Assembly (NCBI RefSeq): GCF_016411865.1
Contig: NZ_JAEKJA010000007.1
Location: forward strand, 62,001 to 126,000
From: Acuticoccus mangrovi
GTDB taxonomy: Bacteria; Pseudomonadota; Alphaproteobacteria; Rhizobiales; Amorphaceae
Reading direction: 5' to 3'
DNA: 64,000 nt
The translations under genes were made by a program, and so were the position numbers. The notes under the pieces were generated by a model. That model did not search any database, was not told the DNA's origin, and was given only the letters and a program-made list of their open reading frames with translations. This document shows, in pieces, positions 9,266 through 64,000 of this stretch. The stretch's first letter is position 1, and each line of letters starts with the position of its first letter.

Positions 9266-9266
9266 C

Positions 9267-25076: not shown

Positions 25077-25083
25077 CAGGGGC

Positions 25084-26091: not shown

Positions 26092-26249
26092 GTCCATCCC
26101 TCTGGTGTCCGGCCGTATGCCGACTTTCGGCCATGGTTAGCATCGCCGCTCGGTGCCGCCAACGGGCGGCGCACCCGGCGAGCTCGCCGATCGCGAGCAA
26201 TTCTCGTGCCGTGCTGGACGGGCGGTCGCCGCTCGACTAGCGTCGCATC

Positions 26250-26639
26250 ATGCTCACGCGTCACACCCCCACGACCATCCGCCGCCCGTTCTCCAACTAC
26301 GCCCACGCGGTGGAGGTGCCGGCCGGCATGCGGCTTCTCGTCCTGTCCGGCCAGCTCGGCATCGGGGCCGACGAGGCGGTGCCGATCGGCGCGGAGGCCC
26401 AGGCCGAGCTGTGCTTTCGCAACATCAGCGCCATCCTCGCCGAGGCGGGGGCGGACGCCTCCAATCTCGTCCGCCTCAACGCCTACGTGGCGGGCCGGGA
26501 GCATCTCGCCGGCTACATGGCGGCGCGCAACCGCTTCGTGGGCGACAAGCCCGCGCCGGCCTCCACGCTGATGATCGTCTCGGGCTTTGCGACCGAGGCC
26601 TTCGTGGTGGAGGTGGAGGCGATCGCCGCGCTCCCCTGA
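26250..26639 (+). CDS. Rid (YjgF/YER057c/UK114) family protein lacking the RidA arginine
   Basis: A 129-residue single-domain protein with VLSGQLGIGADEAVPIG, the NISAILAEAGADASNLVRLNAYV helix-strand pair and the ending FVVEVEAIAAL of the Rid family. The arginine that gives RidA its imine deaminase activity (PAR near position 105) is not present: the motif reads PAST at 103-106. It therefore belongs to a non-RidA subfamily whose role is less known. It is divergent from the NMT1-type operon by about 160 bp and may process a reactive intermediate of that pathway. Confidence 0.82.
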   Translation: MLTRHTPTTIRRPFSNYAHAVEVPAGMRLLVLSGQLGIGADEAVPIGAEAQAELCFRNISAILAEAGADASNLVRLNAYVAGREHLAGYMAARNRFVGDKPAPASTLMIVSGFATEAFVVEVEAIAALP

Positions 26640-49923: not shown

Positions 49924-50468
49924 ATATCGCTCTCCGAATGACGCAATATGCTAAGCTCTTTGTATAAACACTGGCAATGGTCCCGCTGCTCGACACGCTA
50001 GAGCACCGGCCGCAGCCGGAGAAACGTGTAGGTTGTGCGATGGCTGTTGCCGTAAAAGTAGACTTAGCCAAAGTATTTAAAGCCAACAATCAGCAGGGCC
50101 GGGGATGCGGTGCGTACGCGCGAGAGGCGCCGCGCCGCGATTGCGCGACCCGGCCCGTCGGCACCGTCGCCCGGGCCGTGATCGGGCCGACCTCCGGCCG
50201 CACGATCGCACCTCACGACACGGCGCTTGCGAACGCGACGCATGACGTCTCGGGCCGCCCGATCCGCGGCGGCCGGACCCTCCGAAACGACACGGTCGCA
50301 TCGCCGCGCGGGGCGCTTCGTGTGTCGTCGCCGGAATGGGAAGAGGGGGTCGGCGCGCCATGGCCGGCCCTTTCGTGGATCAACACGCAGCCGGCACGAC
50401 ACGAGCGGTGGCCGGGCAACGGTCGGCGGGTGTGTGCCGACAGAACACGGAACGAGGGATAGAGAGTT
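49924..50468. promoter_or_regulatory. 545-bp intergenic region upstream of the arylsulfatase operon
   Basis: No convincing gene is found here. The left part (49924-50095) is AT-richer, with aatatgctaagctctttgtataaaca next to the AraC start and gtaaaagtagacttagccaaagtatttaaag at 50053-50083. The right part is GC-rich without codon signal. Close to the sulfatase start, cggcac (50392) and gtgccg (50434) could pair around a long loop, then GAGGGATAGAGAG serves as ribosome site. The length suggests several regulator sites for the divergent AraC protein. Confidence 0.4.
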
Positions 50469-52103
50469 ATGATGAGAACGTTAGTATGGGCGGCCGCGAT
50501 CGCGACAGCGGTCGGCGGGCCGGCCATGGCTCAGGACGCGAAGAAGCCGAACATTCTCCTGATCGTGTCCGACGACACCGGTTGGGGTGACCTCGGTCCC
50601 TATCTCGGCGGCGAAGGGCGCGGCATGCCGACCCCGAACTTCGACGAGCTCGCCGCCGAAGGCATGACCTTCACCAACTTCTACGGCCAGCCGAGCTGCA
50701 CCCCCGGCCGCGCCGCGATCCAGACCGGCCGCATCCCGAACCGTTCGGGCATGACGACGGTGGCGTTCCAGGGCCAGGGCGGCGGTCTTCCGGCCGCGGA
50801 ATGGACCCTCGGCTCGGTGCTGAAGGAAGCAGGCTACAAGACCTACTTCACCGGCAAGTGGCACCTCGGCGAGAGCGACTATGCGCTCCCCAACGCCCAG
50901 GGCTACGACGTGATGAAGTACGCCTTCCTTTATCACCTCAACGCCTACACCTACACCGACCCCAAGTGGCACAAGGCGATGTCCGCGGAACAGCGCGAGA
51001 TGTTCCAGAAGGTCACCAAGGGCGCACTGTCCGGTAACGCCGGTGAGGCCGCCAAGGAAGTCTTCAAGGTCAACGGCGAATACGTCGACACCCCGGACAA
51101 GGGCGTGGTCGGCATTCCCTATCTCGACAAGTACGTCGAGCAGGCCGCCGTCGAGTTCCTCGAAGACGCCGCCAAGGACCCCTCCGAGCCGTTCTTCATC
51201 AACGTCAACTTCATGAAGAACCACCAGCCGAACATCCCGGCGCCGGAGTTCGAGGGCAAGTCCACCATCAAGACCGACTATGCGGACGCGGTGATCGAGC
51301 TCGACACCCGCGTGGGCAACGTTCTGAAGAAGCTCGACGAGCTCGGTCTCGCCGACAACACGCTGGTGTTCTACACCGTCGACAACGGTGCCTGGCAGGA
51401 CGTGTACCCCGACTCCGGCTACACCCCGTTCCGCGGCACCAAGGGCACCGTGCGTGAAGGCGGCAACCGCGTTCCCGCGATCGTGCGCTGGCCGGGCCAC
51501 GTCAAGGGTGGCGTCGTCAACCACGACATCAGCGGCGGTCTCGACCTGATGGCGACCTTCGCCTCCGTCGCCGGCACCACGCTGCCCGAGAAGGATCGCG
51601 CCGGCGAGCCGATCATCTTCGACAGCTACGACATGACCCCGGTGTGGACCGGCACGGGCGAAGACCCGCGTACGGAGTGGTTCTACTTCACCGAGGACGA
51701 GCTTTCCCCGGGTGCGGTGCGCGTGGGCATGTTCAAGTACGTGTTCAACCTTCGTGGTGACGATGGTGCCGCGACCGGTGGCCTCTCGGTCGACACCAAC
51801 CTCGGCTGGAAGGGTGCCTCGAGCTACATCGCGACGGTGCCGCAGGTGTTCAACCTCCTCGCCGACCCGCAGGAGCGCTACGACATCTTCATGACCACCT
51901 TCACCGAGAGCACCTGGACGACGGTGTCGGCGAACGAAGTGGTGGCAAAGCTCCTCAAGAGCTACGTGAAGTATCCGCCCCGCAAGCTGCAGAGCGAGAC
52001 CTACACCGGTCCCCTCACCATCACCGCCTATCAGCGCTTCCAGTGGGCGCGTGAGCAGCTCGCCAAGGGTGGCGTGAGCATCGGCCTGCCCACCGGCAAC
52101 TGA
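50469..52103 (+). CDS. Periplasmic arylsulfatase (type I, formylglycine-dependent)
   Basis: A 544-residue exported sulfatase with signal peptide (VWAAAIATAVGGPAMAQ). Asp35-Asp36 (VSDDTGWGD) bind calcium, Cys77 in SCTPGRAAIQTGR is the C-x-P-x-R site converted to formylglycine, Arg81 stabilises it, and Lys130/His132 (TGKWHLG) complete the centre. It cleaves organic sulfate esters outside the cytoplasm. Codons include more GGT, CGT and CTT than neighbours, pointing to high expression. Start ATG 50469 has a strong purine-rich site. No formylglycine-generating enzyme gene lies in the window. Confidence 0.93.
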   Translation: MMRTLVWAAAIATAVGGPAMAQDAKKPNILLIVSDDTGWGDLGPYLGGEGRGMPTPNFDELAAEGMTFTNFYGQPSCTPGRAAIQTGRIPNRSGMTTVAFQGQGGGLPAAEWTLGSVLKEAGYKTYFTGKWHLGESDYALPNAQGYDVMKYAFLYHLNAYTYTDPKWHKAMSAEQREMFQKVTKGALSGNAGEAAKEVFKVNGEYVDTPDKGVVGIPYLDKYVEQAAVEFLEDAAKDPSEPFFINVNFMKNHQPNIPAPEFEGKSTIKTDYADAVIELDTRVGNVLKKLDELGLADNTLVFYTVDNGAWQDVYPDSGYTPFRGTKGTVREGGNRVPAIVRWPGHVKGGVVNHDISGGLDLMATFASVAGTTLPEKDRAGEPIIFDSYDMTPVWTGTGEDPRTEWFYFTEDELSPGAVRVGMFKYVFNLRGDDGAATGGLSVDTNLGWKGASSYIATVPQVFNLLADPQERYDIFMTTFTESTWTTVSANEVVAKLLKSYVKYPPRKLQSETYTGPLTITAYQRFQWAREQLAKGGVSIGLPTGN

Positions 52104-52118
52104 GGCTTCGACGATCCG

Positions 52119-52146
52119 CTCCGTCCCGTCGTCGCACGGGGCGGAG
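52119..52146 (+). terminator. Hairpin between sulfatase and HAD genes
   Basis: ctccgtcccg/cggggcggag makes a 10-bp stem with one G-U pair and an 8-nt loop, 15 bp after the sulfatase stop and followed by cctcccaaattt. It may partly terminate or protect the highly expressed sulfatase mRNA while allowing read-through into the HAD gene. Confidence 0.5.
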
Positions 52147-52181
52147 CCTCCCAAATTTCAACCCTTCAGGGGGCAACAACA

Positions 52182-53177
52182 ATGCGCAAAAATCGCTTTT
52201 TGTCGGTGCTCGCGGCGCTCGCCGTGGTCGTCACCTCGACGGGGTTCGCTCTCGCCGACACCGATCCTTTGCCGTCGTGGAACGAGGGAGCCACGAAGAC
52301 GGCCATCGTCGATTTCATGACCGCCATCACCACCGAGGGCGGACCGGACTACGTCGCGCCGGCCGATCGCATCGCGACCTTCGACAACGACGGAACGCTG
52401 TGGAGCGAGCAGCCGATGTACGTGCAGCTCGCCTTCGCGCTCGACCGGGTCAAGGCGCTCGCCCCCGAGCACCCGGAGTGGAAGGACGAGGAGCCCTTCA
52501 AGTCGGTCCTCGACGGCAATCTCGAGGCGCTCGCCGCCTCCGGGCACAAGGGCCTGCTCGAGATCATCGCCGCGACCCATGCGGGCATGTCGACGGACGC
52601 GTTCACCGAGATCGTCACCGACTGGATGGCGACGGCGAAGAATGCGAAGACCGGCAAGCTCAGCACCGAGATGATCTTCCAGCCGATGCTGGAGCTCATC
52701 GCCTACCTCAAGGCCAACGAGTTCGACGTCTTCATCGTCTCGGGCGGCGGCATCGCTTTCATGCGGCCCTGGACGGAAACGGTCTACGGCATCGCCCCGC
52801 CCAACGTGGTCGGGTCGTCGATCGCTCTGAAATATGACGACACCGACGGCGCACCCAAGATCATGCGGGAGGCCGAGCTCAACTTCAACGACGACGGACC
52901 CGGCAAGCCCGTCGGCATCGAGAGCCACATCGGCAAGCGCCCCATCGCCGCCTTCGGCAATTCCGACGGCGATTTCGAGATGCTCGAGTGGACCACGTCC
53001 GCGGACGGCCGCCGTCTCGGCATGATCGTGCACCACGACGATGCCGCTCGCGAGTTCGCCTACGACCGCAAGTCTCACTTCGGCAAGCTCGACCGTGCTC
53101 TGGATGCCGCACCGCAAGAAGGATGGACGCTCATCAGCATGAAAGATGACTGGAAGACGATCTTTCCGGCCGAATAA
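52182..53177 (+). CDS. Exported HAD-superfamily phosphatase
   Basis: A 331-residue protein with signal peptide (SVLAALAVVVTSTGFALA). HAD motif I is DNDGT with Asp68 and Asp70, motif II has Ser187 in VSGGG, and motif IV is GNSDGDFEM with Asp262/Asp264; the phosphoserine-phosphatase-like cap lies between I and II. It should hydrolyse phosphate monoesters in the periplasm. GGGGGC precedes the ATG. With the sulfatase it could release both sulfate and phosphate from the same class of external substrate. Confidence 0.87.
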   Translation: MRKNRFLSVLAALAVVVTSTGFALADTDPLPSWNEGATKTAIVDFMTAITTEGGPDYVAPADRIATFDNDGTLWSEQPMYVQLAFALDRVKALAPEHPEWKDEEPFKSVLDGNLEALAASGHKGLLEIIAATHAGMSTDAFTEIVTDWMATAKNAKTGKLSTEMIFQPMLELIAYLKANEFDVFIVSGGGIAFMRPWTETVYGIAPPNVVGSSIALKYDDTDGAPKIMREAELNFNDDGPGKPVGIESHIGKRPIAAFGNSDGDFEMLEWTTSADGRRLGMIVHHDDAAREFAYDRKSHFGKLDRALDAAPQEGWTLISMKDDWKTIFPAE

Positions 53178-53190
53178 GTTGTAAGAGTCG

Positions 53191-53231
53191 AGCGACCTCG
53201 AAGAGAACTTGTCGCCCTCCGAGAGGTCGCT
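53191..53231 (+). promoter_or_regulatory. Long-loop inverted repeat upstream of outer-membrane protein gene
   Basis: agcgacctc (53191-53199) and gaggtcgct (53223-53231) are perfect 9-bp arms around a 23-nt loop, placed 30 bp before the next start codon. It may be a terminator, an attenuator or part of the leader. No T-run follows. Confidence 0.4.
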
Positions 53232-53261
53232 TGGGCCGTCGTGTTCGGAAGGAACAGAGTG

Positions 53262-54044
53262 ATGTATCGCTGGTTGAAAGCACTTCCAATCCTGGTGCTG
53301 TGGGCTGGGTCGGCGGCCGCTGCCGATCTCACGCCGCCGGCACCGGAGCCGCCCGCGCCGGAGGTGTTCGACAGCCGGTGGAGCGTCGCCGGAGGCGCAT
53401 ATCTGTGGGCCGCGAGCCTCGATGGTCGGGTGGGCGCGGGCTCCGTCGGCCCCGGCGACGTGCACGCGAGCTTCGGCGACATCTTCAAGAACCTCGACAT
53501 GGCGTTCATGGCCGCCGGCGAGGTGCGCTACGACCGGTTCGGCGTGTTCGCCGACCTCGTCTATACGCGCGTCTCCGCCGACGGCACCGATCCCGGTAGC
53601 GGCATCTACCTGAAGGCGACCAACAGCGTGGTGGTCGGCACGCTGCTCGGCGAGGCGCGGGTCTTCGAGCAGGGCAAGACGTCGGCCGACGTGATGGCCG
53701 GCGCCCGCCTGTGGAGCGTCTCGGCCAAGCTGACCGGCACGCCGCCCGGCGGCCCGAGCCAGAGCGTCTCCGGCGACGAGGTGTGGGTCGATCCGATGGT
53801 CGGCGTGAAGGGCCAGCTCCAGGGGAACTCGCCCTGGTACGTCATGGGCTGGGCGATGATCGGCGGCTTCGGCGTCAGCGCCGACCTCGACTGGGACGTG
53901 ATGGGTGGCGTCGGCTACCGCGTCACCGACCACATCTCGCTCCTCGCCGGCTACCGCGCGCTCGGCGTCGACTATTCGCACGGCAACTTCACCTACGACG
54001 TGGTCGAGCACGGCCCTGTCGTTAGTGCGGTGCTGCGCTTCTGA
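53262..54044 (+). CDS. Outer-membrane beta-barrel protein
   Basis: A 260-residue protein with signal peptide (ALPILVLWAGSAAAAD), a Pro-rich linker (PPAPEPPAPE) and eight or so amphipathic strands with Gly/aromatic alternation (WSVAGGAYLWAASL, VFADLVYTRVS, GWAMIGGFGV, LLAGYRALGVDYS), ending in Phe as needed for Bam insertion. It resembles small OmpA/OmpW-like barrels annotated as OM proteins beside arylsulfatases. ATG 53262 has GGAAGGA upstream; the GTG at 53241 is not needed. Probably a diffusion pore or surface protein for the module. Confidence 0.8.
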   Translation: MYRWLKALPILVLWAGSAAAADLTPPAPEPPAPEVFDSRWSVAGGAYLWAASLDGRVGAGSVGPGDVHASFGDIFKNLDMAFMAAGEVRYDRFGVFADLVYTRVSADGTDPGSGIYLKATNSVVVGTLLGEARVFEQGKTSADVMAGARLWSVSAKLTGTPPGGPSQSVSGDEVWVDPMVGVKGQLQGNSPWYVMGWAMIGGFGVSADLDWDVMGGVGYRVTDHISLLAGYRALGVDYSHGNFTYDVVEHGPVVSAVLRF

Positions 54045-54089
54045 GGCAGGAGACGCCGGCAGCCACTGTCGGCCCCGAGCGTAGTGGAG

Positions 54090-54114
54090 CATGCCGGCCG
54101 CGACGGCCGGCATG
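54090..54114 (+). terminator. Strong 10-bp hairpin after the first outer-membrane protein gene
   Basis: catgccggcc/ggccggcatg is a perfect stem with a 5-nt loop, followed by a T-containing tract (ggggtttgttgtgtg). This is the best intrinsic-terminator candidate of the module and separates it from the next barrel gene. Confidence 0.6.
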
Positions 54115-54177
54115 AGGGGTTTGTTGTGTGTCGGCGGCCGGTCAGCGCGCGGCGCGATCGCCACGGGGGGGATGACA

Positions 54178-54990
54178 ATGAGCGTTGCTGCAATGGCCGG
54201 GCGGACGGGACGTCGATGGGCGAGGGCGGTCCTCGCCGTCGGAGCGCTGCTGACGGTATCGGCCGCCGCGGCGCAGGACGCCGACGAGCTCGCCAAGAAG
54301 CTCTCCAACCCCGTCGCCAGCCTCATCAGTGTGCCGTTTCAGTACAACATCGACTTCGGCCTCGGGCCGGACGGCGACGGCGTCAACCAGACGCTGAACA
54401 TCCAGCCGGTCCTGCCGATCAGCCTCAACGAGGACTGGAACCTGATCTCCCGCACCATCGTCCCGGTGCGCTGGGTGACGGACGTCTACGCCCGCGACGT
54501 GTTCGGCCTCGGCGACACCACGCAGAGCTTCTTCCTCTCGCCCAAGGCGCCCGGACCGGGCGGCCTGATCTGGGGCCTCGGGCCGGTGATCTACCTGCCG
54601 ACGGCGACGGACAAGCTCCTCGGCACCGGTCAGGTCGGTCTCGGCCCCACCGGCGTGGCGCTGCTGCAGGAGGGGGCGTGGACGATCGGCACGCTCGCGA
54701 ACCACATCTGGAGCCTCGACGACAACACCGAGGTGAACTCCACCTTCGTCCAGCCCTTCCTCTCCTACGCCTTCGGCCACGGTCAGACGCTGACGCTGAA
54801 CTCCGAAACGACGTTCGACTGGAACTCGGATCAGGCGACCGTGCCGATCAACGTCATGTACACCAAGGTGTTCTCCGCCGGGCAGCAGCCGATGAGCTTC
54901 CAGCTCGGCGGCCGCGTCTACGCCAACCGGCCGAAGGACGGTCCGGACTGGGGCGTGCGCGCGACGATGACGCTGCTCTTCCCGAAGTAG
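54178..54990 (+). CDS. Outer-membrane channel-like protein (phenol-degradation MetA-like, often called neuromedin U)
   Basis: About 270 residues with a signal peptide (AVLAVGALLTVSAAAAQ) and a beta-barrel body: SNPVASLISVPFQYNIDFG, LNIQPVLPISLNEDWNLISRTIVPV, TQSFFLSPKAPG, LGTGQVGLGPTGVAL and the ending ATMTLLFPK. This family is thought to form outer-membrane channels for hydrophobic or aromatic compounds and is commonly near sulfatases. A GGGGGG run lies six bases before ATG 54178; ATG 54172 is an alternative. It ends 4 bp before the convergent glutamine synthetase-like gene. Confidence 0.8.
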   Translation: MSVAAMAGRTGRRWARAVLAVGALLTVSAAAAQDADELAKKLSNPVASLISVPFQYNIDFGLGPDGDGVNQTLNIQPVLPISLNEDWNLISRTIVPVRWVTDVYARDVFGLGDTTQSFFLSPKAPGPGGLIWGLGPVIYLPTATDKLLGTGQVGLGPTGVALLQEGAWTIGTLANHIWSLDDNTEVNSTFVQPFLSYAFGHGQTLTLNSETTFDWNSDQATVPINVMYTKVFSAGQQPMSFQLGGRVYANRPKDGPDWGVRATMTLLFPK

Positions 54991-54994
54991 CGCC

Positions 54995-56395
54995 TCAGAG
55001 GAACTCCACCATCCGCGCCCGCTCGCCGGCGTCGACGGCGTAGAAGTCGCGGTCCCACTCCTTGAGCTTCCAGTCGAGGAAGATGCCGGCCATCTCCTCG
55101 CCGAGCGTCGCCGGCACCAAGGGGTCGGTCTCGAACGCCTGGAGCGCCTCGAGGAGGGTGCGCGGCAGCCGCATCACGCTGCCGCCGCCCGCGAGCGCGA
55201 TCCGGCCGGTGGCCGAGGGGGCGCCGAGCTTCAGATAGAGGTTGTCGTTCATCGGCGCGCCCGGGTCGGCCGCCGCGGCGACGCCCTCGAGACCTGCCGC
55301 CAGCGACAGCGCCGCCCCGAGATAGAAGTTGCAGGCAATGTCCGGCGCGCGGTTCTCCACGCACGGCCGGTTCATCGGCAGGCGCAGCATCGCCGAGCGG
55401 TTGTTCTTGCCGTAGGCGGTGAGAACGGGCGCCCAGCTCATGTCGGCCATCTGCCCCTGGGCGACGAGCCCCTTATAGGAGTTGTGGGTGGGGCAGGTGA
55501 CGGCCGTCAGCGCCGGAGCGTGCGCCAGGAGACCCGCCACGAAGTGATAGCCGATGTCGGGGAAGGGGATGCCGTGGCGCCCCGCGAGCCCGGCCGCATC
55601 GCCGTCGCCGGCGAAGAGATTGTCGCCGGTCTCGGGACGATAGAGCGACATGTTGAAGTGGGCGCCGGAGCGGAAGTCGCTCGAGAAGGGCTTCGGCATG
55701 AAGCTCGCGACGAGGCCCATCTCCTGGGCGATCGCCTTCGCCATGTAGCGGAAGAAGATCAGCCGGTCGCACATCGTCAGCGCGTCGGCGTAGGCGAAGT
55801 CGAGCTCGTGCTGGCCCTGCCCGCCCTCCGCGTCGAACGAGTAGACGTCCCAGCCGAGGGCGTTCATCGCCTCCACCATGCGGTCGAGGAAGGGCATCGA
55901 CTGCATGATCTGATGCACGTCGTAGCCGGGGCAGAGGCCGAGATGCTGGCGTTCCTGCACGCCGGTGACGTCGTCCCCCGTGCGGCGGAACACGTAGAAC
56001 TCCGTCTCCACGCCGAGGTTCATGCCGTAACCCGCCGCCCGCGCCGCCGCGAGGGTGCGCTTCAAGATGGTGCGGCTGCAGTTGGGGTAGGGCGCGCCGT
56101 GGAAGGTGAGGTCGCCGGCGAACCAGGCGAAGCGGGTGTCCCACGGCAGGATCATCAGGCTGTCGAGGTCGGGGACGACGGCGCACTCGTCCTTCTCCGG
56201 CCCGATCAGCCCCATCCCCTCCATGGCGCCGACGGTGAAGAGCTCCGAGCCGGCGCACATGTTCTCGAAGTGGGACAGCGGTACCGCCTTCGCCTTGGGC
56301 ACGCCGTGGATGTCGACATAGGTCGCGAGGCAATATTTCACCCCCGCGTCCTGAAGCGTGCGGCGGACGTCGGCGACGCGGCGGGGGTCGTTCAT
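54995..56395 (-). CDS. glnT: Type III glutamine synthetase/gamma-glutamylmethylamide synthetase-like ligase
   Basis: A 466-residue ATP-dependent ligase joining glutamate to an amine. Metal and glutamate ligands can be seen: Glu130/Glu132 (VETEFYVF), Glu190 and Glu197 (AEGGQGQHELDF), His246 (SGAHFNMS), and the late RxExR-like VENRAPDIACNFYLGAA. The GAHFNMS and NSYKGL segments place it in the GlnT/GMAS branch, not GlnA; GMAS makes gamma-glutamylmethylamide from methylamine. It is divergent from a creatininase gene by 126 bp, and close to the importer operon, suggesting glutamylation of a small amine released from the imported compound. Confidence 0.85.
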   Translation of the reverse strand: MNDPRRVADVRRTLQDAGVKYCLATYVDIHGVPKAKAVPLSHFENMCAGSELFTVGAMEGMGLIGPEKDECAVVPDLDSLMILPWDTRFAWFAGDLTFHGAPYPNCSRTILKRTLAAARAAGYGMNLGVETEFYVFRRTGDDVTGVQERQHLGLCPGYDVHQIMQSMPFLDRMVEAMNALGWDVYSFDAEGGQGQHELDFAYADALTMCDRLIFFRYMAKAIAQEMGLVASFMPKPFSSDFRSGAHFNMSLYRPETGDNLFAGDGDAAGLAGRHGIPFPDIGYHFVAGLLAHAPALTAVTCPTHNSYKGLVAQGQMADMSWAPVLTAYGKNNRSAMLRLPMNRPCVENRAPDIACNFYLGAALSLAAGLEGVAAAADPGAPMNDNLYLKLGAPSATGRIALAGGGSVMRLPRTLLEALQAFETDPLVPATLGEEMAGIFLDWKLKEWDRDFYAVDAGERARMVEFL

Positions 56396-56521
56396 CGGAA
56401 GCCTCGGTGGATCGATCGCGGTTCGCCGCCTCGAAGCAATGTCGAGGCCAGCCCGTCGCGATCACCGGCGGTTTCATGGCACGCGCGTTGCAACGCGTGC
56501 GAAGCATCGGCGGAGGGACGG
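56396..56521. promoter_or_regulatory. Divergent spacer between ligase and creatininase genes
   Basis: This 126-bp head-to-head spacer must drive the ligase leftwards and the creatininase-importer operon rightwards. It contains the palindromic gcacgcgttgcaacgcgtgc at 56480-56499 (perfect 10-bp half-sites), a strong candidate operator about 20 bp before the creatininase start, and the GGAGGG ribosome site at 56511. Confidence 0.6.
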
Positions 56522-57283
56522 ATGGCGCGCTGGGACTTGATGACGAGCGAGGAGATCGGTGCGATGATCGCGAAAGGCCGCGATCTCGCGATCCTGCCCG
56601 TCGGGGCCACGGAGCAGCACGGCCCGCACCTCGCCGCCGGCTGCGACACGATCTCGGCCGAGACGCTCGCGACCCTCGCCGCCGAGAAGGCCGACGTGTT
56701 CGTGCTGCCCGGCCTCGCTTACGGCTGCTCGCTCGGCCACACCGCGAAGTGGCCCGGCACCTTCTCGCTGCATCCCACCACGCTCACCCAGGTCGCGGTG
56801 GAGGTCGGCCGCTGGGCGGCGGCGAACGGGTTGAAGAAGCTGCTCTTCCTGTCCGGCCACGGCACCAACGACGCGCCGCTGAGGAGCGCCATCCTCCAGC
56901 TGCGCTACGAGTTCGCGCACGTGCGCTTCGCCACCATGGGCCTGTGGGACATCTCCCCCCGCGTCGGCGCGCTCTATTGGCGCGACGGGGCCGACATCCA
57001 CGCCAACCGCGGCGAGACCTCGATCCTCCTCCACCTGCGCCCGGAGATGGTGCGCATGGAGCACGCCTTCGACGTGCCGGACGTGACCCCTGGAACGCAC
57101 TTCTCCTACGCGATGCCCGCCACCACGCCGACCGGCGTCGTCGGTGCCCCCTCCGAGGCGAGCGCCGAGGATGGGGCGATGATGGTGGAGACCATCGTCA
57201 CCGATCTCGCCGAATGGCTGACCGAAGCGCTCGCGGAAGACTGGCCCGCAGTGCCGCCGGGGCCGGGCGATGCCACCCATTAG
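56522..57283 (+). CDS. Creatininase-family amidohydrolase (paralogue 2)
   Basis: A 253-residue member of the family with Glu31, His33 (TEQHGPHL), Asp42 (GCD), His113 (SGHGTN) and Glu165 (HANRGETS). Like paralogue 1 it lacks the Glu of NGHYEN, having Thr, so the second metal site differs from that of creatininase. Start ATG 56522 has GGAGGG. It lies 22 bp before the importer binding-protein gene and so probably cleaves the imported amide or a later intermediate. Confidence 0.87.
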   Translation: MARWDLMTSEEIGAMIAKGRDLAILPVGATEQHGPHLAAGCDTISAETLATLAAEKADVFVLPGLAYGCSLGHTAKWPGTFSLHPTTLTQVAVEVGRWAAANGLKKLLFLSGHGTNDAPLRSAILQLRYEFAHVRFATMGLWDISPRVGALYWRDGADIHANRGETSILLHLRPEMVRMEHAFDVPDVTPGTHFSYAMPATTPTGVVGAPSEASAEDGAMMVETIVTDLAEWLTEALAEDWPAVPPGPGDATH

Positions 57284-57305
57284 TTCACCAACGAGGTTGC
57301 CCCCC

Positions 57306-58373
57306 ATGAAGCGACTGATCATCGCGCTCGCCGCCGGCGCCGCGCTCCTCACCGCCCCGGTTGCGGGCGCCCTGGCGCAGGAGAAGACCTATAGGGTCGG
57401 CTACAACATCTATGTCGGCTTCATGCCCTACGGCTGGATGGCCGAGACCGGCATCCTCGACAAGTGGGCCGAGAAGTACGGCGTCAAGATCGAGATGATC
57501 CAGGTGAACGACTATGTCGGCGGCATCAACCAGTTCGTCGCCGGCGACCTCGACGCGATGGCCGTCGCCTCCATGGACGGGCTGACCATCCCCGCCGCCG
57601 GCGGTGTCGACACCACCATCGCCCTCGTCGGCGACTACTCCAACGGCAACGACGGCATCCTGTCGAAGACGCTCGACAGCGTCACCGCCCTCAAGGGCGA
57701 GACGATCCACCTCTTCGAGCTCACCGTGTCGCACTATCTCCTGTCGCGCGCGCTCGAGGAGAACGGCCTCTCCCTGCGCGACGTCAACACGGTGAACATC
57801 ACCGACGCCGACATCGCCCCCGCCTATATCGGCTCCGACGAGGTGAAGCACGCGGTCGCCTGGAACCCGATGCTCCTCGCCATGAAGAACGGCGTCGAGG
57901 GCTCCACCATGGTGTTCGATTCCTCCTCGACCCCCGAGGAGATCGTCGACGTGATGCTGTTCCACACCGAGACGGTGGACGAGGACCCGGCCTTCATCAA
58001 GGCGGTGGTCGGCGCCTGGTACGAGGCGATGGAGATCATGTCGGGCGGCGACGACGCGGCCGAGAAGATGATCGCCGAGCTCGCCGACATGTCGGGCGGC
58101 TCGGTGGAGGACTACAAGGCCCAGCTCGATTCCACCAAGATGTACTATACGCCCGCCGAGGCGCTCGAGTTCATGACCTCCGACCAGCACAAGACCACCT
58201 GGGACTTCGTGCGCAAGTTCTCCTTCGAGGTCGGCCTCTTCGGCGAGAGCGCGCCGGACGAGAACTTCGTCGGCATCGAGTTCCCCGACGGCTCCGTGCT
58301 CGGCGACGAGAACAATGTGAAGCTTCGCATCAACTCGACGTTCACCAAGATGGCCGTCGACGGCGAGCTCTGA
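57306..58373 (+). CDS. Substrate-binding protein of urea-carboxylase-associated type ABC importer
   Basis: A 355-residue exported protein (signal IIALAAGAALLTAPVAGALAQ). The mature part starts YRVGYNIYVGFMPYGWMAETG, with IEMIQVNDYVGGINQFVAGDLDAMAV and ALVGDYSNGNDGI, matching the binding proteins encoded next to urea (now guanidine) carboxylases rather than nitrate or taurine ones. It should capture a small cationic or urea-like molecule. ATG 57306 lies 22 bp after the creatininase gene, in the same operon. Confidence 0.85.
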   Translation: MKRLIIALAAGAALLTAPVAGALAQEKTYRVGYNIYVGFMPYGWMAETGILDKWAEKYGVKIEMIQVNDYVGGINQFVAGDLDAMAVASMDGLTIPAAGGVDTTIALVGDYSNGNDGILSKTLDSVTALKGETIHLFELTVSHYLLSRALEENGLSLRDVNTVNITDADIAPAYIGSDEVKHAVAWNPMLLAMKNGVEGSTMVFDSSSTPEEIVDVMLFHTETVDEDPAFIKAVVGAWYEAMEIMSGGDDAAEKMIAELADMSGGSVEDYKAQLDSTKMYYTPAEALEFMTSDQHKTTWDFVRKFSFEVGLFGESAPDENFVGIEFPDGSVLGDENNVKLRINSTFTKMAVDGEL

Positions 58374-58433
58374 TCCGTCCCGGCTCCGGCGTGCCGGGGC
58401 CGGTCCCTCTCGCGGAGTAGCGCGGCAGGCACC

Positions 58434-59255
58434 ATGAAACGCGCCATCAACTACGTTCCGTCCCGCCCGTCCGCGATCCTCCTCGCGCTGCTGCCGTTCG
58501 CGCTGGTCCTCGTGATCTACGCCATCGGCTCGGAGGTGCGGCTCGCCGACAATCCGTCCGACAAGCTGATGCCGTCCTTCGGCACCTTCGCCGACGCCAT
58601 CGATCGGCTCGCCTTCCAGGAGAATCGGCGCACCGGCGAGTACGTCTTCTGGACCGACACGGCGATCAGCCTGCAGCGGATCTTCGTCGGCCTCGCCATC
58701 TCCACGGTGCTGTGCATCGTGGTCGGCATCCCGGTCGGCTTCCTGCCCTACCTGCGGAGCGCGTTCGGGGCGTTCATCTCCGCCTTCTCGCTGATCCCGC
58801 CGCTCGCGGTGCTGCCGATCCTCTTCATCATCTTCGGCCTCGGCGAAACCTCCAAGATCGTCCTCATCGTGTTCGGCGTCGCCCCCTTCCTCGCCCGCGA
58901 CGTCGCGCTCACCGTGGCGCAGATCCCGCGCGAGCAGATCGTCAAGGCGCAGACGCTCGGCGCCTCCACCTGGCAGATGATGACGCTCGTCGTCTTTCCG
59001 CAGGTGCTGCCGCGCCTCTTCGATTCGCTGCGCCTCTCCCTCGGCGCGACCTGGCTCTTCCTCATCGCGGCGGAGGCGATCGCGTCGGAGGGCGGGCTCG
59101 GCTACCGCATCTTCCTCGTCCGCCGCTATCTGTCGATGGACGTGATCCTGCCCTACGTCGCCTGGATCACCTTGCTGGCTTTCCTGATGGACTACGGGCT
59201 GGTGCTCGCCTCGCGCGCCTCCTCCCGCTGGTACCACATCGGTCGGGGCGCCTGA
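58434..59255 (+). CDS. ABC transporter permease of the urea-carboxylase-associated type
   Basis: A 273-residue membrane protein with six spans. The long loop after span 1 (SDKLMPSFGTFADAI, RRTGEYVFWTDTAISLQRIFVG) and EAA motif region KAQTLGASTWQMMTLVVFPQVLPRLFDSLR are shared by permeases of this group. Its TGA overlaps the ATPase ATG (TGATG). It forms the channel for the binding protein at 57306. Confidence 0.9.
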   Translation: MKRAINYVPSRPSAILLALLPFALVLVIYAIGSEVRLADNPSDKLMPSFGTFADAIDRLAFQENRRTGEYVFWTDTAISLQRIFVGLAISTVLCIVVGIPVGFLPYLRSAFGAFISAFSLIPPLAVLPILFIIFGLGETSKIVLIVFGVAPFLARDVALTVAQIPREQIVKAQTLGASTWQMMTLVVFPQVLPRLFDSLRLSLGATWLFLIAAEAIASEGGLGYRIFLVRRYLSMDVILPYVAWITLLAFLMDYGLVLASRASSRWYHIGRGA

Positions 59256-60121
59256 TGACCCACATCGCGATCCGCCACCTCACCAAGGAATACGGCGCGG
59301 CCACCATTCTCGACAACGTGTCGGTGGAGCTGCCCGACCACGAGTTCTGCGTGGTGCTCGGCCCGTCCGGCGCCGGCAAGACCACGCTCCTGCGCATCCT
59401 CCTGTCGCAGGAGGCGGCGACGCGCGGGGAGGTGCTGATCGACGGCAAGCCCATCGACTCCGAGCCTCAGCCCGACCGCGGCGTCGTCTTCCAGCGCTAC
59501 TCGGTGTTTCCGCACAAGACGGTGCTCGCCAACGTCATGATGGGGCCGCAGCTCGCCGCCGCGCCGGTGACGGGGCGGATGTGGGGGCAGAAGCGCCGGG
59601 CGCTGCGCGAGCGGGCGCTGGCGCTCCTCGACGAGGTGGGCCTCGCCGCCCATCTCGACAAATATCCGACGCAGCTGTCCGGCGGCATGCAGCAGCGCCT
59701 CGCCATCGCCCAGGCGCTCATCATGGAGCCCAAGGTGCTGCTTCTCGACGAGCCTTTCGGCGCGCTCGACCAGTCCACCAAGAAGGCGATGCATCGCCTC
59801 ATCCTCGACCTCTGGCAGAAGAACAAGATGACCATCGTGATGGTCACCCACGACATCCAGGAGGCGTTCACCCTCGGCACGCGCATCCTGATGGTCGACA
59901 AGCGCCGCCGCGATCCGCAGGCACCGGAGGCCTACGGCTCGACGATCACCGAGGACATCCGCCTCGACCCCGCCAAGAAGCCGCCGCTCTCGGTGGTGGA
60001 GGGCGAGGGCGACGGGGAGGACGCCCACTCCATGCGCGCGATCTTCGCGCAGTGGCGTGCCCGGGCCGGCGACGCCGTGATATCCGACGAGGTCGCGGAG
60101 GGGCTGAAGGCGGTCGTTTGA
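59255..60121 (+). CDS. ABC transporter ATPase of the urea-carboxylase-associated type
   Basis: A 288-residue ATPase: Walker A GPSGAGKTT at 36-44, Q-loop VVFQRYSVFPHKTVLANV, signature LSGGMQQRLAIAQAL, Walker B LLLDEPFGALDQ and VTHDIQE. The C-terminal 60-residue extension with GSTITEDIRLDPAKKPPLS is typical of this subgroup. TGATG overlaps link it to the permease before and the dehydrogenase after, so importer and enzymes are made together. Confidence 0.92.
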   Translation: MTHIAIRHLTKEYGAATILDNVSVELPDHEFCVVLGPSGAGKTTLLRILLSQEAATRGEVLIDGKPIDSEPQPDRGVVFQRYSVFPHKTVLANVMMGPQLAAAPVTGRMWGQKRRALRERALALLDEVGLAAHLDKYPTQLSGGMQQRLAIAQALIMEPKVLLLDEPFGALDQSTKKAMHRLILDLWQKNKMTIVMVTHDIQEAFTLGTRILMVDKRRRDPQAPEAYGSTITEDIRLDPAKKPPLSVVEGEGDGEDAHSMRAIFAQWRARAGDAVISDEVAEGLKAVV

Positions 60122-60840
60122 TGGAATTGACGGGAGTGCGCGCCCTCGTGACGGGGGGCGCTCGAGGGATCGGCGCGGCGATCGTGCGCGAGCTCGCCGC
60201 ACGCGGAGCGCGCGTCGCGGCGGTCGACATCGACTTCGACGGCACGCAGACCATGGCGCGCCGTACCGACATGACCGACGAGGCCGACGTGGTCGGCGCC
60301 GTCGCCTGGGCCGCCGACATCCTCGGCGGGCTCGACGTGCTCGTGAACAACGCCGGCATCGTCATCGAAAAGCCGCTGCTCGACACCACCGCGGCCGACT
60401 TCGACCGGGTGATCGCGGTGAACCTCCGGGGCGTCTTCCTCGCCGGGCGCGAGGCCGCGCGCCACTTCGTGACCCGGCCCGCGGGCACCTCGCCCGGGCG
60501 CATCATCAACATCGCCTCCGAGCTCGCCCATCTCGGCCGGTCCGAATATTCGCCCTATTGCGCCTCCAAGGGCGGCGTCATCAGCCTCACGCGCTCCTGG
60601 GCGCGCGAGCTCGCGCCGCGCGTGCTCGTCAACGCCGTCGCCCCCGGCCCGACGGACACCGACATGCTGCGCCGCGAGCGCCAATATGCCGAGCTGAAGG
60701 CGACGGCGGAGGGCATCCCGCTCGCCCGCCTCGGCGAGGCTGGCGACATCGCCCGCGCCGTCGCCTTTCTCGCCAGCGCCGATTCCGCCTTCATGACGGG
60801 CTCCGTCGTGGACGTGAACGGCGGCGCCGCCATGTATTGA
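60121..60840 (+). CDS. Short-chain dehydrogenase/reductase (SDR 1)
   Basis: A 239-residue classical SDR. NAD(P)-binding TGGARGIG at 11-18, NNAG at 77-80, catalytic Ser133, Tyr146 and Lys150 (SEYSPYCASK). The acidic Asp36 in VDID after the second strand favours NAD+, so oxidation of an alcohol is likely. The ending FMTGSVVDVNGG is standard. Directly coupled to the ATPase gene. The substrate is not known; possibly a hydroxylated intermediate of the catabolic pathway. Confidence 0.9.
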   Translation: MELTGVRALVTGGARGIGAAIVRELAARGARVAAVDIDFDGTQTMARRTDMTDEADVVGAVAWAADILGGLDVLVNNAGIVIEKPLLDTTAADFDRVIAVNLRGVFLAGREAARHFVTRPAGTSPGRIINIASELAHLGRSEYSPYCASKGGVISLTRSWARELAPRVLVNAVAPGPTDTDMLRRERQYAELKATAEGIPLARLGEAGDIARAVAFLASADSAFMTGSVVDVNGGAAMY

Positions 60841-60851
60841 GGGAGGGGCCG

Positions 60852-61625
60852 ATGGTCATGCTGCCGGGGATCGCCGACAAGGCCACGCTGGTGACGGGGT
60901 CGAGCCGCGGCATCGGCTACGCCGTCGCCGAGGCCTTCGTCACGGCCGGCGCCAAGGTCACCCTGCTCGCCGAGACGCAGGAGGTGGTGGACGCCGCCCG
61001 GCGCCTGGAGGAGGCCCACGGCACCGACGTCGGCTCCATCGTCTGCGACGTGCGCGAGGCGGCGAGCGTCGCCGGCGCGCTGCGCCGCTTCGGCCCGCTC
61101 GACATCCTCGTCAACAATGCGGGCCTCGAGCGCGAGACGCGGCTCGACGACCCCTCCGCCGTCGCCATGGTGTCCACCATCATGGACATCAACGTGACCG
61201 GGATGTTCCGCGTCACCCACGCCATGCTGCCGATGATGAAGCCCGGCGGGGTGATCGTGAACACCGCCTCCGAATGGGGCCGCTACGCGCCGGGCGGCTA
61301 CTCCGCCTACGCCGCCTCCAAGCACGCCGTCATCGGCCTCACCCGCTCCTGGTCGCGCGAGCTCGCCGAAAGCGGCATCCGCGTCAACGCGGTGTGCCCC
61401 GGCTGGGTCGGCACCGAGCCGGCGATGCGCACGCTGCGCACGATGGCCGAGCGGCGCGGCGTCACCGAGGCGGAGATGACCGCCGAGATCGAGGCCGGGC
61501 AGGACATCAAGGGCGTGATGGAGCCCGCCGACGTCGCCGGCCTCTACCTGTTCCTCGCGAGCGATCTCGCCGCCAACATCACCGGCCAGGCGGTCCATGT
61601 GGACCGCGGCAAGTTCCAGGCCTGA
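60852..61625 (+). CDS. Short-chain dehydrogenase/reductase (SDR 2)
   Basis: A 257-residue classical SDR with TGSSRGIG at 15-22, NNAG at 88-91 and catalytic Ser140, Tyr153, Lys157 (YSAYAASK). No acidic residue follows the second strand (LLAETQ), so cofactor preference is unclear. It follows SDR 1 by 11 bp and precedes the DUF1989 gene by 11 bp. Two different SDRs in one short operon suggest two successive redox steps or one heteromeric enzyme. Confidence 0.88.
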   Translation: MVMLPGIADKATLVTGSSRGIGYAVAEAFVTAGAKVTLLAETQEVVDAARRLEEAHGTDVGSIVCDVREAASVAGALRRFGPLDILVNNAGLERETRLDDPSAVAMVSTIMDINVTGMFRVTHAMLPMMKPGGVIVNTASEWGRYAPGGYSAYAASKHAVIGLTRSWSRELAESGIRVNAVCPGWVGTEPAMRTLRTMAERRGVTEAEMTAEIEAGQDIKGVMEPADVAGLYLFLASDLAANITGQAVHVDRGKFQA

Positions 61626-61636
61626 AGGAGAACGAT

Positions 61637-62356
61637 GTGCAGCCCCACGACGGCTTTGGCCCCGGCGCGTTCTGGCCTACGGAGGACGAGCTCGCCTCCA
61701 CCGGCAACACCACGCTGAAGCACCCGGTCTCGCTCGACGGGACGCCCGAGATCGGCAAGCGCTACACGGTGCCCGCCCGCCAGGGCCTCGCCGTGCGCCT
61801 CAAGAAGGGCGAGCAGGTGCGGGTGATCAACACCCACGGCACGCAGGTCGTCGATTCCTGGGCCTTCAACGCCGCCGACCCGACCGAGTTCATGTCCATG
61901 GAGCACATGCGCCAAGGGATCAACGGCATCATCCCTAAGCCCGGCGACGGCCTCATGACCAACAAGCGCCGGCCGATCCTCACCTTCCTGGAAGACACCT
62001 CGCCCGGCATCCACGACACCATCATCGCCGCCTGCGATATCTGGCGCTACCGCAATCTCGGCGTAGAGGGCTACCACGACAGCTGCACCGACAATCTCAG
62101 GATGGCACTGGTGGCGATCGGCTTTCCCGTCGCGGAGGTGCCCTCGCCCTTCAACCTCTTCATGAACATCCCGGTGCGGCCGGACCACTCGATCGGCTGG
62201 GAGCCCACCGTGTCGAAGCCGGGCGACAGCGTGACCTTCCGGGCGGAGATGGACCTCGTCTACGCCGTGTCCGCCTGCCCGCAGGACATCGTGCCGATCA
62301 ACGGCGCGGGCCTCGCCCCCGTCGACGCCCATCTCGAAGTGCTGGCGGAGGCCTGA
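61637..62356 (+). CDS. DUF1989 (urea/guanidine-carboxylase-associated) protein
   Basis: A 239-residue protein with the DUF1989 patterns YTVPARQGLAVRLKKGEQVRVINTHGTQVVDSWAF, then SMEHMRQG, and CDIWRYRNLGVEGYHDSCTDNL (each seen in part), which carries the family Cys and His residues. Two related subunits form carboxyguanidine deiminase (CgdAB) beside guanidine carboxylase; here there is only one. GTG 61637 is chosen because GGAG stands six bases upstream and the nearby ATG is out of frame. It ends 2 bp before the creatininase gene. Confidence 0.86.
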   Translation: MQPHDGFGPGAFWPTEDELASTGNTTLKHPVSLDGTPEIGKRYTVPARQGLAVRLKKGEQVRVINTHGTQVVDSWAFNAADPTEFMSMEHMRQGINGIIPKPGDGLMTNKRRPILTFLEDTSPGIHDTIIAACDIWRYRNLGVEGYHDSCTDNLRMALVAIGFPVAEVPSPFNLFMNIPVRPDHSIGWEPTVSKPGDSVTFRAEMDLVYAVSACPQDIVPINGAGLAPVDAHLEVLAEA

Positions 62357-62358
62357 TC

Positions 62359-63126
62359 ATGACCGTGCGAATGGCCGACATGGCCTGGCCCGAATACGAG
62401 AAGCGCATCAAGGCCGGCGCGGTGGTGATCCTGCCGGTGGGCTCGATCGAGCAGCACTCCTACCACCTGCCGCTCGGCGTCGACCGCTACCTTCCCGCCC
62501 TCGTCGCGGAGCGGGCGGCGGAGGAGCTCGGCGCGATCGTCGCCGAGCCGGTGCTCTACGGCGCCCGCTCGCAGATGCGCATGGGCGGCGGCCAGACCTA
62601 TCCCGGCACCACCAGCCTGTCGCCGGTGACGCTGATGCACGTCATCCGCGACGTGCTCACCGCCTTCATCGCGCACGGGGCCAAGAAGATCGTGGTGTGC
62701 AACGGGCACTACGAGAACATGATGTTCACCTTCGAGGGCATCGACATGGCCCTCAAGGACGCCAAGATGCTCGGCGTCGACGACGTGCGCGTGATGCGGT
62801 TCGAATATTGGGACTACATGACCCGCGAGACCATCGACGCCCTGTTCCCCGACGGCTATCCGGGGATGGAGCTGGAGCATGCCGCGCTCATCGAGACCTC
62901 GCTGATGCTCCACTTCCGCCCCGACCTCGTCGACATGAGCAAGCTGCCCAACGAGAGCGCCGGGGACTTTCCCGCCTACGACATCTTTCCCGCCACGCGG
63001 GAGGGGGTGCCGCCCTCGGGCGCCCTGTCGCCGCCCAACCGGGCGCGGGCGGAGTACGGGGCGCGGATCGCGGGCGACTGCGTGAAGGGCATCGTCGCCG
63101 ACATTCGCAAGGTGTTCGGCGCCTGA
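62359..63126 (+). CDS. Creatininase (creatinine amidohydrolase), paralogue 3
   Basis: A 255-residue protein that fits true creatininase along its whole length: Glu31 and His33 (SIEQHSYHLPLGVD), Asp42, His117 and Glu119 in NGHYEN, and Glu179 in HAALIETSLML. Trp151 (EYWDY) and the endings FPAYDIFP and SGALS are also creatininase-like. These are the two-metal ligands for hydrolysing creatinine to creatine. Paralogues 1 and 2 lack Glu119. As last gene of the operon it gives the best clue to the pathway; a closely related cyclic amide cannot be excluded. Confidence 0.88.
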   Translation: MTVRMADMAWPEYEKRIKAGAVVILPVGSIEQHSYHLPLGVDRYLPALVAERAAEELGAIVAEPVLYGARSQMRMGGGQTYPGTTSLSPVTLMHVIRDVLTAFIAHGAKKIVVCNGHYENMMFTFEGIDMALKDAKMLGVDDVRVMRFEYWDYMTRETIDALFPDGYPGMELEHAALIETSLMLHFRPDLVDMSKLPNESAGDFPAYDIFPATREGVPPSGALSPPNRARAEYGARIAGDCVKGIVADIRKVFGA

Positions 63127-63218
63127 GGCAAAGGGCGACGCGTGATCCGCCTTGCGAAGGTGGGAAGGCTGTGCTCACCCTTGCCACACGCAAGAATAGG
63201 CGAACAGGGGAGTTCTCC

Positions 63219-64000
63219 ATGAAGACCAGCATGATGGCGCTCATCGGTGCCGCCGCGCTCGCCGCGGCCACCCCGGCTCTGGCCGACGATGCCAAGATCG
63301 GCGTGCTGCTCGGATTCACCGGCCCGCTCGAGAGCCTCGCGCCCGACATCGCCTCCGGTGCCGAGCTCGCGATCTCCGAGGTATCGGAATCCGGCAAGCT
63401 GCTCGACGGCACCACCGTCACCGCCGTCCGCGGCGATTCCACCTGTATCGACGCCGGCGCCGCGACGGCCGCCGCCGAGCGCCTCATTACCTCCGATGGC
63501 GTCGCGGGCATCGTCGGCGCCATGTGCTCCGGCGCGACCACCGCGGCGCTGCAGAATGCGGCCCTGCCGAACGGCGTGGTAATGATTTCCCCGTCCGCCA
63601 CGTCGCCGGCCCTCTCCACGGTGGAGGACAACGGCCTCTTCTTCCGCACCGCCCCGTCCGACGCACGTCAGGGCGAGATCATCGCCGACATGCTGACCGA
63701 GCGCGGCATCAAGGAGGTGGCGCTCACCTACACCAACAACGACTACGGCAAGGGTCTCGCCGACGCCATCGCGGGGGCCGTCGAGAAGGCCGGCGGCACG
63801 ATCACCATCAACGCCCCCCACGAGGACGGCAAGGGCGACTACTCCGCCGAAGTCGCGGCGCTGGCGGCGGCCGGCGGCGAGATGCTGGTGGTGGCCGGCT
63901 ACCTCGACCAGGGCGGCAAGGGCATCATCCAGGCTTCGCTCGATTCGGGCGCGTTCGACACCTTCCTGCTGCCCGACGGCATGGTCGGCGAGGCGCTCGT
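63219..64000 (+). CDS. Branched-chain-amino-acid-type ABC substrate-binding protein (3' end outside window)
   Basis: The first 260 codons of a periplasmic binding protein: signal peptide (MMALIGAAALAAATPALAD), then IGVLLGFTGPLESLAPDIASGAELAISEV, VTAVRGDSTCIDAGAAT and VVMISPSATSPALS, the LivJ/LivK type I fold. Cys residues in DSTCID and GAMCSGA may form a disulfide. ATG 63219 has GGGGAG seven bases upstream. It is 92 bp after the creatininase gene and may start a new importer operon for amides or amino acids. Confidence 0.88.
   Translation, partial: MKTSMMALIGAAALAAATPALADDAKIGVLLGFTGPLESLAPDIASGAELAISEVSESGKLLDGTTVTAVRGDSTCIDAGAATAAAERLITSDGVAGIVGAMCSGATTAALQNAALPNGVVMISPSATSPALSTVEDNGLFFRTAPSDARQGEIIADMLTERGIKEVALTYTNNDYGKGLADAIAGAVEKAGGTITINAPHEDGKGDYSAEVAALAAAGGEMLVVAGYLDQGGKGIIQASLDSGAFDTFLLPDGMVGEAL

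Follow-up and report, generated by a model that had tools for sequence, protein, structure and literature searches.

We analyzed a 64,000-nucleotide stretch of the genome of Acuticoccus mangrovi (positions 62,001 to 126,000 of contig NZ_JAEKJA010000007.1), which we will call the window. It contains a nine-gene cluster: a glutamine synthetase (GS)-like ligase on the minus strand and, diverging from it, eight plus-strand genes in the order cre1 (a creatininase-family hydrolase), the periplasmic binding protein (SBP), permease, and ATPase of an ATP-binding cassette (ABC) importer, two short-chain dehydrogenases/reductases (SDR1 and SDR2), a DUF1989 protein, and cre2 (another creatininase-family hydrolase). 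We tentatively propose, with a probability of about 0.38, that this genus-specific cluster fuses an importer and a DUF1989 enzyme to two recurring catabolic modules, and that its substrate is a guanidino compound, though not free guanidine. Module A is the ligase with cre1, and module B is the SDRs with cre2. Our evidence is gene content, gene order, the recurrence of the modules, and residue patterns; the substrate and all of the reactions are predicted from these. Families were assigned to the window's genes with NCBIfam and Pfam profile searches, which confirmed the gene order, coordinates, and families in a first-pass annotation of the DNA. Neighboring genes without a family search were named by eye.

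Creatininase homologs encoded beside SDRs

By its scores, cre2 would be annotated as a creatininase. It is well above the cutoff of NCBIfam's creatininase model (TIGR04448; 314 vs. 235 bits), and its nearest solved relative is the creatininase of Pseudomonas putida (231-232 bits). In the P. putida numbering, cre2 keeps the binuclear metal ligands E34, H36, D45, H120, and E122, which agrees with the first-pass annotation, and it keeps H178 and W154 as well. But W174 is replaced by methionine. We take the role of this tryptophan to be holding creatinine in the P. putida enzyme. Because the solved set in the PDB includes creatininase sequences that are changed at positions 154, 174, and 122 (one has phenylalanine at 174), these sites were chosen for study. 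Among open-licence papers, we found none that pairs creatininase with Trp174.

Homologs of SDR1 and/or SDR2 adjoin 25 cre2 homologs besides the window's. We considered a cre2 homolog to be SDR-linked if a match to the window's SDR1 or SDR2, at 42% identity or above, lies on the same strand within 1.7 kb. Trp174 is absent from all 26 SDR-linked rows of the alignment (window included), which have M, T, I, F, or Y instead, and it is kept in 26 of the 31 rows that are not SDR-linked, including P. putida (Fisher p = 2.6e-11, ignoring relatedness). The other five unlinked rows have L or R at this position and have lost W154 as well. This count excludes the window's own copy (L137), near copies of L122 (L123 and L110), G046:C285 (two hits with no fetched locus), and the repeat loci L105-L111, L113-L118, L120, L125, L130, and L178-L192; four of the 21 plasmid hits were entered (H1, H2, H3, and H8). 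The printed alignment rows keep E34, H36, D45, E122, and H178, and one SDR-linked row (L136) has H120N.

In a quick tree, the SDR-linked label needs just 2 changes, and none of 500 shuffles gave a value as low. P. putida shares a starred group with L122, L134, and L135, whose creatininases adjoin M24 creatinase-like genes and keep Trp174, and the window's cre2 lies outside this group. The deepest branches of this tree are weak (73%), and an unlinked protein that keeps Trp174 (L133) falls on the window's side. Given that the SDR-linked copies lack Trp174, the NCBIfam name probably does not give the substrate of the cre2-type proteins here.

At E 1e-60, relatives of cre2 turned up in 12 of 398 genomes from the phylum and in 27 of 297 from the order, and these are SDR-linked in part. 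Using tblastn on the fetched loci, we found SDR homologs (43-53% identity outside the genus) directly next to many of them: outside the genus, these are 43-52% identical to SDR1 and 48-53% identical to SDR2. The usual order is SDR2-SDR1-cre2, and the window's order is SDR1-SDR2-DUF1989-cre2. In four genomes from outside the class (L140, L141, L143, and L145), just an SDR1-type gene lies within the short locus.

To describe the neighbors of module B, we clustered the genes from 20 loci, 16 of which are SDR-linked (L119, L120, L121, L136, and L178-L189). Twelve of the 16 contain a LysR gene from a single cluster, and ten contain an NMT1-type SBP. At least one ureohydrolase is encoded near the SDRs and cre2 in 12 of the 16, with two in tandem in 8; the tandem proteins have intact metal motifs (GGDH, DAHxD, and DxDxxDP). 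A Rieske oxygenase is present in 5/16 and a close DUF1989 relative in 3/16; L136 has a flavin mononucleotide (FMN) monooxygenase gene near module B, and L179 has a 45% identical SBP at its edge. Family searches with representatives bore out the LysR, NMT1, permease, and Rieske names. The one ureohydrolase that was compared with solved structures, from L121, is closest to 3-guanidinopropionase (3nip; 443.8 bits) and then to guanidinobutyrase (315.5 bits), ahead of the agmatinases; it is also over the cutoff that NCBI sets for agmatinase (204.5 vs. 174.3 bits). A human enzyme of this superfamily that was annotated as an agmatinase is reported to prefer linear guanidino acids (PMC9772407). On contigs other than the window's, the same genome (G000) encodes ureohydrolase relatives at 50% and 38% identity, and these two could serve the window's pathway.

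Three other observations concern these families. In L119 (G351), which is a 3.8-kb contig that cuts off the module, an argininosuccinate-lyase-like gene (L119:1-1173, itself running off the contig; 273.6 vs. 279.5 bits) is directly upstream of SDR2-SDR1-cre2. G000 encodes a further creatininase homolog (C65:41457-42176, locus L130, row L150 of the alignment) that keeps W174, has Y for W154, and sits among amidohydrolase-like and importer genes; L124 looks similar. At L128 and L129, creatininases that lack both W154 and W174 (P/L instead) have a DUF1989 gene (54-55% identity) on the opposite strand, at a distance of about 8 kb. These are possibly a third creatininase subfamily.

A ligase paired with a creatininase-family protein

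The ligase is just below the cutoff of TIGR03105, which describes GMAS and type III GS (452.3 vs. 469.6 bits), and its closest solved relative is a glutamate-methylamine ligase (9qur; 290 bits). Partner genes for N-methylglutamate synthase are absent from the operon; the rest of the genome was not searched for them. Its divergent neighbor, cre1, scores below the cutoffs of TIGR03964, TIGR04448 (116 vs. 235 bits), and IolN, and its nearest solved relative, again the creatininase of P. putida, is a weak match (90 bits). It keeps E34, H36, D45, and H120, with T in place of E122.

We found relatives of cre1 in 6 of 385 genomes from the class (E 1e-40) and, with a seven-row alignment as the query (E 1e-50), in 9 of 297 genomes from the order, own genus included; the plasmid collection, searched at E 1e-40, gave none. 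A GS-like gene is encoded 28-846 bp from the cre1 homolog in all 13 loci besides the window. Eleven of these loci are from outside the genus (10 genomes), and the GS-like gene is within 0.9 kb in all 11. It is 44-76% identical to the window's ligase in 12 of the 13 loci; L216 has two distant GS-like genes instead (31% and 27%). In L100 and L216, one extra frame separates the GS-like gene from the cre1 homolog. The orientation varies (divergent, convergent, or same strand) while the proximity is constant.

The first-pass annotation had the ligase capture a released amine. That is possible, but since cre1 is the constant neighbor of the ligase, the pairing suggests a cycle in which a gamma-glutamyl amide would be made and then hydrolyzed, rather than simple capture. 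L091, L101, L103, L217, and L219 carry Rieske-domain or luciferase-like monooxygenase genes close to module A. In L104, the ligase-cre1 pair is flanked on one side by a uca-like SBP (143.7 bits, under the family cutoff of 333.9) and on the other by a guanidine-II riboswitch accompanied by UAAP1, UAAP2, and a carboxylase. Also, L215 (G949; 8346-10817), from another family, has a ligase and a cre1 that are 75% and 84% identical to the window's, in the same divergent layout and without the other genes of the operon. This suggests that module A has been horizontally transferred.

A possible guanidine link and the layout of the operon

The window's SBP is over the cutoff for TIGR03427, which models the importer associated with urea or guanidine carboxylase (421.1 vs. 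333.9 bits). The first-pass annotation noted that the window has no carboxylase, and indeed none is in the operon. Another contig of the genome, C14, does encode a urea-carboxylase-family protein (TIGR02712; 1716.6 vs. 1303.85 bits) with a DUF1989 pair: one is over the UAAP2 cutoff (322.7 bits) and the other is UAAP1-like (177.4 bits, under 205.95). The C14 locus has a guanidine-I riboswitch (87.2 bits). Because the window's SBP is the sole over-cutoff copy of TIGR03427 that we found in G000, the importer may serve both the operon and the C14 locus. At Rfam's gathering score, no guanidine riboswitch was found in the operon (positions 50000-64000 were scanned), so we rejected the idea that free guanidine induces it via a riboswitch.

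The interpretation in the first-pass annotation is partly supported: the genes are parts of recurring modules, and module B has guanidino-acid-type ureohydrolases among its neighbors and, in G407, adjoins a guanidine-carboxylase cluster. There, a single contig encodes a guanidine-I riboswitch, UAAP1, UAAP2, a urea-carboxylase-family protein, allophanate hydrolase, and a uca importer, followed by a LysR-like gene, an NMT1-type importer, SDR2, SDR1, cre2, a ureohydrolase, an amino-acid-type ABC transporter, and a DUF1989 protein (59% identity); some of these neighbors were named by eye. A plasmid of Salipiger sp. CCB-MM3 has the row uca importer, NtaA/DmoA FMN monooxygenase, creatininase, SDR, SDR.

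The operon encodes a single, stand-alone DUF1989 protein (239 amino acids; PF09347, 167.5 bits) and not a two-subunit pair of the CgdAB type. CgdAB is given as the carboxyguanidine deiminase in PMC11271267 and PMC12186494, citing Schneider 2020. The window's protein scores far below both curated cutoffs (UAAP2, 102 vs. 284.7 bits; UAAP1, 60.4 vs. 205.95 bits), so we rejected either identity. Its nearest solved relatives are 3oru (238 bits) and then trimethylamine N-oxide (TMAO) demethylase (51 bits). C133, C150, and C214 align with the zinc-binding cysteines of TMAO demethylase, and a histidine (H-x-x-C150) and an aspartate (C214-x-x-D) match residues that were proposed for its second metal (PMC12560246). 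In three Labrys loci, a relative of this protein (59-60%) adjoins a 73-74% identical copy of a GpuA-like gene. Among 57 loci with DUF1989 relatives in our contig collection, several of which are short contigs, a polysaccharide-deacetylase-like gene and a Rieske gene were each found within 6 kb in 4; most show none.

The full layout is known just from the window's genus, in which it is complete in 2 of 8 genomes (G000-G007) and runs into a contig end in a third. G006 has the whole gene order (L090 and L001) at 58-84% identity. In G001, the order is kept through DUF1989; the contig then ends in a frame of the carboxymuconolactone-decarboxylase family, and a cre2 gene may or may not lie beyond it. 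In the other five genomes, searches with the cre2 and cre1 models gave no match at the limits that we set. The DUF1989 protein had matches in 25 of 61 genomes, with the operon's context just in this genus, and among the 57 loci only L001 and L003 (from G006 and G001) have the operon. In the gene-neighborhood check that was proposed along with the first-pass annotation, modules A and B recur in other genomes, and the full order was seen just in the genus.

TGATG overlaps had been described as coupling the genes. They are present at just two junctions, permease/ATPase and ATPase/SDR1; the remaining plus-strand gaps are 22, 60, 11, 11, and 2 bp, so that spacings from cre1 to cre2 range from -1 to 60 bp. 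Given these overlaps and short gaps, a single transcript from cre1 to cre2 is likely. A scan of the 126-bp divergent region for the sigma-70 consensus gave no match, a promoter/terminator scan gave no signal exceeding that in shuffled sequence, and no Rfam family reached its gathering score in positions 50000-64000. Features are listed in Table 1.

Table 1. Features of the nine-gene cluster (positions in the window)
Feature	Position	Strand	Family match or note
GMAS/type III GS-like gamma-glutamyl-amide ligase (module A)	54995..56395	-	PF00120; TIGR03105, 452.3 bits
Divergent intergenic region, 126 bp, presumed promoter region	56396..56521		No Rfam family at gathering score
cre1, creatininase-family hydrolase (module A)	56522..57283	+	PF02633
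uca-type periplasmic binding protein (SBP)	57306..58373	+	TIGR03427
ABC permease	58434..59255	+	PF00528
ABC ATPase	59255..60121	+	PF00005
SDR1 (module B)	60121..60840	+	PF13561; NNAG and YxASK motifs present
SDR2 (module B)	60852..61625	+	PF13561; NNAG and YxASK motifs present
Single DUF1989 protein	61637..62356	+	PF09347; GTG start
cre2, SDR-linked creatininase-clade hydrolase	62359..63126	+	TIGR04448

Genes for a LIV-type ABC transporter follow on the same strand, from 63219 to L088:5290 (the SBP was named by family search and the other genes by eye). We do not include them in the operon, given the 92-bp gap from cre2, an SBP without a tblastn match in the G006 locus, and a generic LivJ-like score. 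Elsewhere in the window, 27069-27863 (+) is a third creatininase-family gene (best model TIGR03964, 105 vs. 172 bits), followed by oligopeptide-type ABC transporter-like genes (by eye). The cluster at 20820-26639 has a cytosine deaminase according to the PRK07583 model (575 vs. 403 bits), an FAD/GlcD-like protein, a Rid-family protein, and importer genes (by eye); this looks like another nitrogen-heterocycle pathway. Some neighboring genes were called with a program that performed badly on high-GC loci, and these are approximate.

A predicted pathway and its alternatives

We predict that the uca-type importer takes up a guanidino compound and that the SDRs make a cyclic or N-acyl guanidine by oxidizing a guanidino alcohol or hemiaminal. 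In some relatives, a Rieske or FMN monooxygenase would perhaps make the substrate of the SDRs. With a creatininase-type metal site and a reshaped pocket, cre2 would then hydrolyze the acylguanidine bond, which would yield a guanidino acid, or else free guanidine and an acid. The DUF1989 protein might strip nitrogen from the guanidino product, where relatives would use a ureohydrolase; free guanidine, if released, could pass to the carboxylase locus on C14. For the amine part, the ligase would join an amine to glutamate, and cre1 would later hydrolyze the resulting gamma-glutamyl amide.

The recurrence of both modules in other genomes argues against a chance assembly. Several observations weigh against our proposal. 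Modules A and B are mostly apart elsewhere (outside the genus, the 289 genomes of the order include 6 with A, 13 with SDR-linked B, and 2 with both; p = 0.025), so a single joint pathway is weakly supported. The window's operon has neither a ureohydrolase nor an oxygenase, and the order of its SDRs is swapped relative to its relatives. A ureohydrolase is within 6 kb of the DUF1989 gene in just 5 of the 57 loci, L002 has a 75% identical DUF1989 protein without the operon on its 7.1-kb contig, and the uca importer is in just 2 of the 16 SDR-linked loci outside the genus (L121 and L136), to which the 45% identical SBP at the edge of L179 can be added. Because cre1 lacks E122, and the copies in L100 and L101 lack H120 as well, its catalytic activity is uncertain. 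Finally, in L173, an SDR directly adjoins a cre2 homolog that keeps W174; at 38% identity to SDR1, it is under the 42% limit and was counted as not SDR-linked.

Creatinine itself, which was among the compound types named in the first-pass annotation, is an alternative: cre2 would be a true creatininase and the remaining genes would handle creatine. The TIGR04448 score, the nearest solved relative, and the metal ligands fit this, but the SDR-linked cre2 proteins lack Trp174 and lie outside the P. putida group, while the three counted proteins from beside creatinase-like genes (L122, L134, and L135) keep Trp174 and fall into the P. putida group, apart from the window's cre2. Also, a Pfam search found no creatinase-like gene in the operon. 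We therefore reject creatinine, which is very improbable as the substrate. The SDRs and cre2 could instead oxidize and hydrolyze a cyclic ketone, lactam, or imide (as for IolN), or a compound derived from a sulfonate or amine. NMT1/SsuA-type binding proteins accompany module B, and the model for IolN, a creatininase-family hydrolase, does match cre2, but only weakly and far below its cutoff (82 vs. 245 bits), so that we rejected an IolN-type C-C hydrolase. With ureohydrolases and guanidine-pathway genes in the neighborhoods, a non-guanidino substrate seems rather improbable.

A closer relative of our proposal is that an N-alkylguanidine such as methylguanidine would be hydroxylated to a hemiaminal, that an SDR would convert this to an N-acyl (e.g., formyl) guanidine, and that cre2 would deacylate it and so send guanidine to C14. 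In Vreelandella, N-(hydroxymethyl)guanidine is described as a long-lived hemiaminal (PMC12508155), Rieske (5/16) or FMN monooxygenase (L136) genes are near some module B loci, and in G407 module B adjoins the carboxylase cluster. But the window's operon has no oxygenase, and the ureohydrolases in 12/16 loci and the presence of two SDRs would be left unexplained, so we think this route is unlikely. Or, two or three unrelated modules might merely have been joined in one genus, with no single pathway. The sparse distribution of the layout within the genus, the separation of the modules elsewhere, and the ligase-cre1 pair of L215 would be expected; the probable single transcript and the order kept in G006 at 58-84% identity would not, and we do not consider this explanation likely either.

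The fusion that we propose for the genus could also be part of something broader, and this we put forward as doubtful. In a widespread and undescribed pathway, the SDR pair would make an acylguanidine (lactam), and the creatininase clade that lacks Trp174 would open it, with the resulting guanidino acid passing to a ureohydrolase or to a single DUF1989 protein; a GS-like ligase with a creatininase-family gamma-glutamyl-amide hydrolase would be a second undescribed pairing. In open-licence papers (mostly abstracts) on creatininase, guanidine, ureohydrolase, gamma-glutamyl, and DUF1989 themes, we found neither module described. If our reading is correct, then recurring genes under the NCBI equivalog name "creatininase" act on another guanidino compound, a GS-like ligase has a previously unrecognized hydrolase partner, DUF1989 has a role beyond the CgdAB pair and TMAO demethylase, and the known bacterial use of substituted guanidines is wider. 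The natural sources of those compounds are described as elusive (PMC12508155).

How does this system compare to known ones? Like the creatininase of P. putida (1j2t), cre2 has the same fold family, the metal ligands, H178 and W154, and an over-cutoff TIGR04448 score; the SDR-linked members differ in lacking W174 and in having an SDR pair, often with a ureohydrolase, as neighbors instead of a creatinase-like gene. Amines are gamma-glutamylated in the PuuA-PuuD, IpuC, and AtdA1-AtdA2 pathways, and the hydrolases PuuD and AtdA2 are of the glutamine-amidotransferase type. As in these pathways and the GMAS/N-methylglutamate pathway, a GS-like ligase adjoins a hydrolase-family gene and sometimes an oxygenase; here, the hydrolase is from the creatininase family, and N-methylglutamate synthase is not in the operon. 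The DUF1989 protein shares three zinc-binding cysteines and the neighboring His and Asp with the DUF1989 domain of TMAO demethylase, but it stands alone, without a GcvT domain. The uca-type importer and a DUF1989 protein are shared with the guanidine carboxylase pathway, which adjoins module B in G407. Unlike that pathway, the window's operon has no carboxylase, allophanate hydrolase, or guanidine riboswitch, and its one DUF1989 protein is below the cutoffs. Finally, in the MgdH/MgdL route of Vreelandella, methylguanidine is demethylated by a 2-oxoglutarate dioxygenase and a lyase (PMC12508155). The window's operon would likewise extend guanidine metabolism to a substituted guanidine, but with SDRs and a creatininase-clade hydrolase in place of the dioxygenase and lyase.

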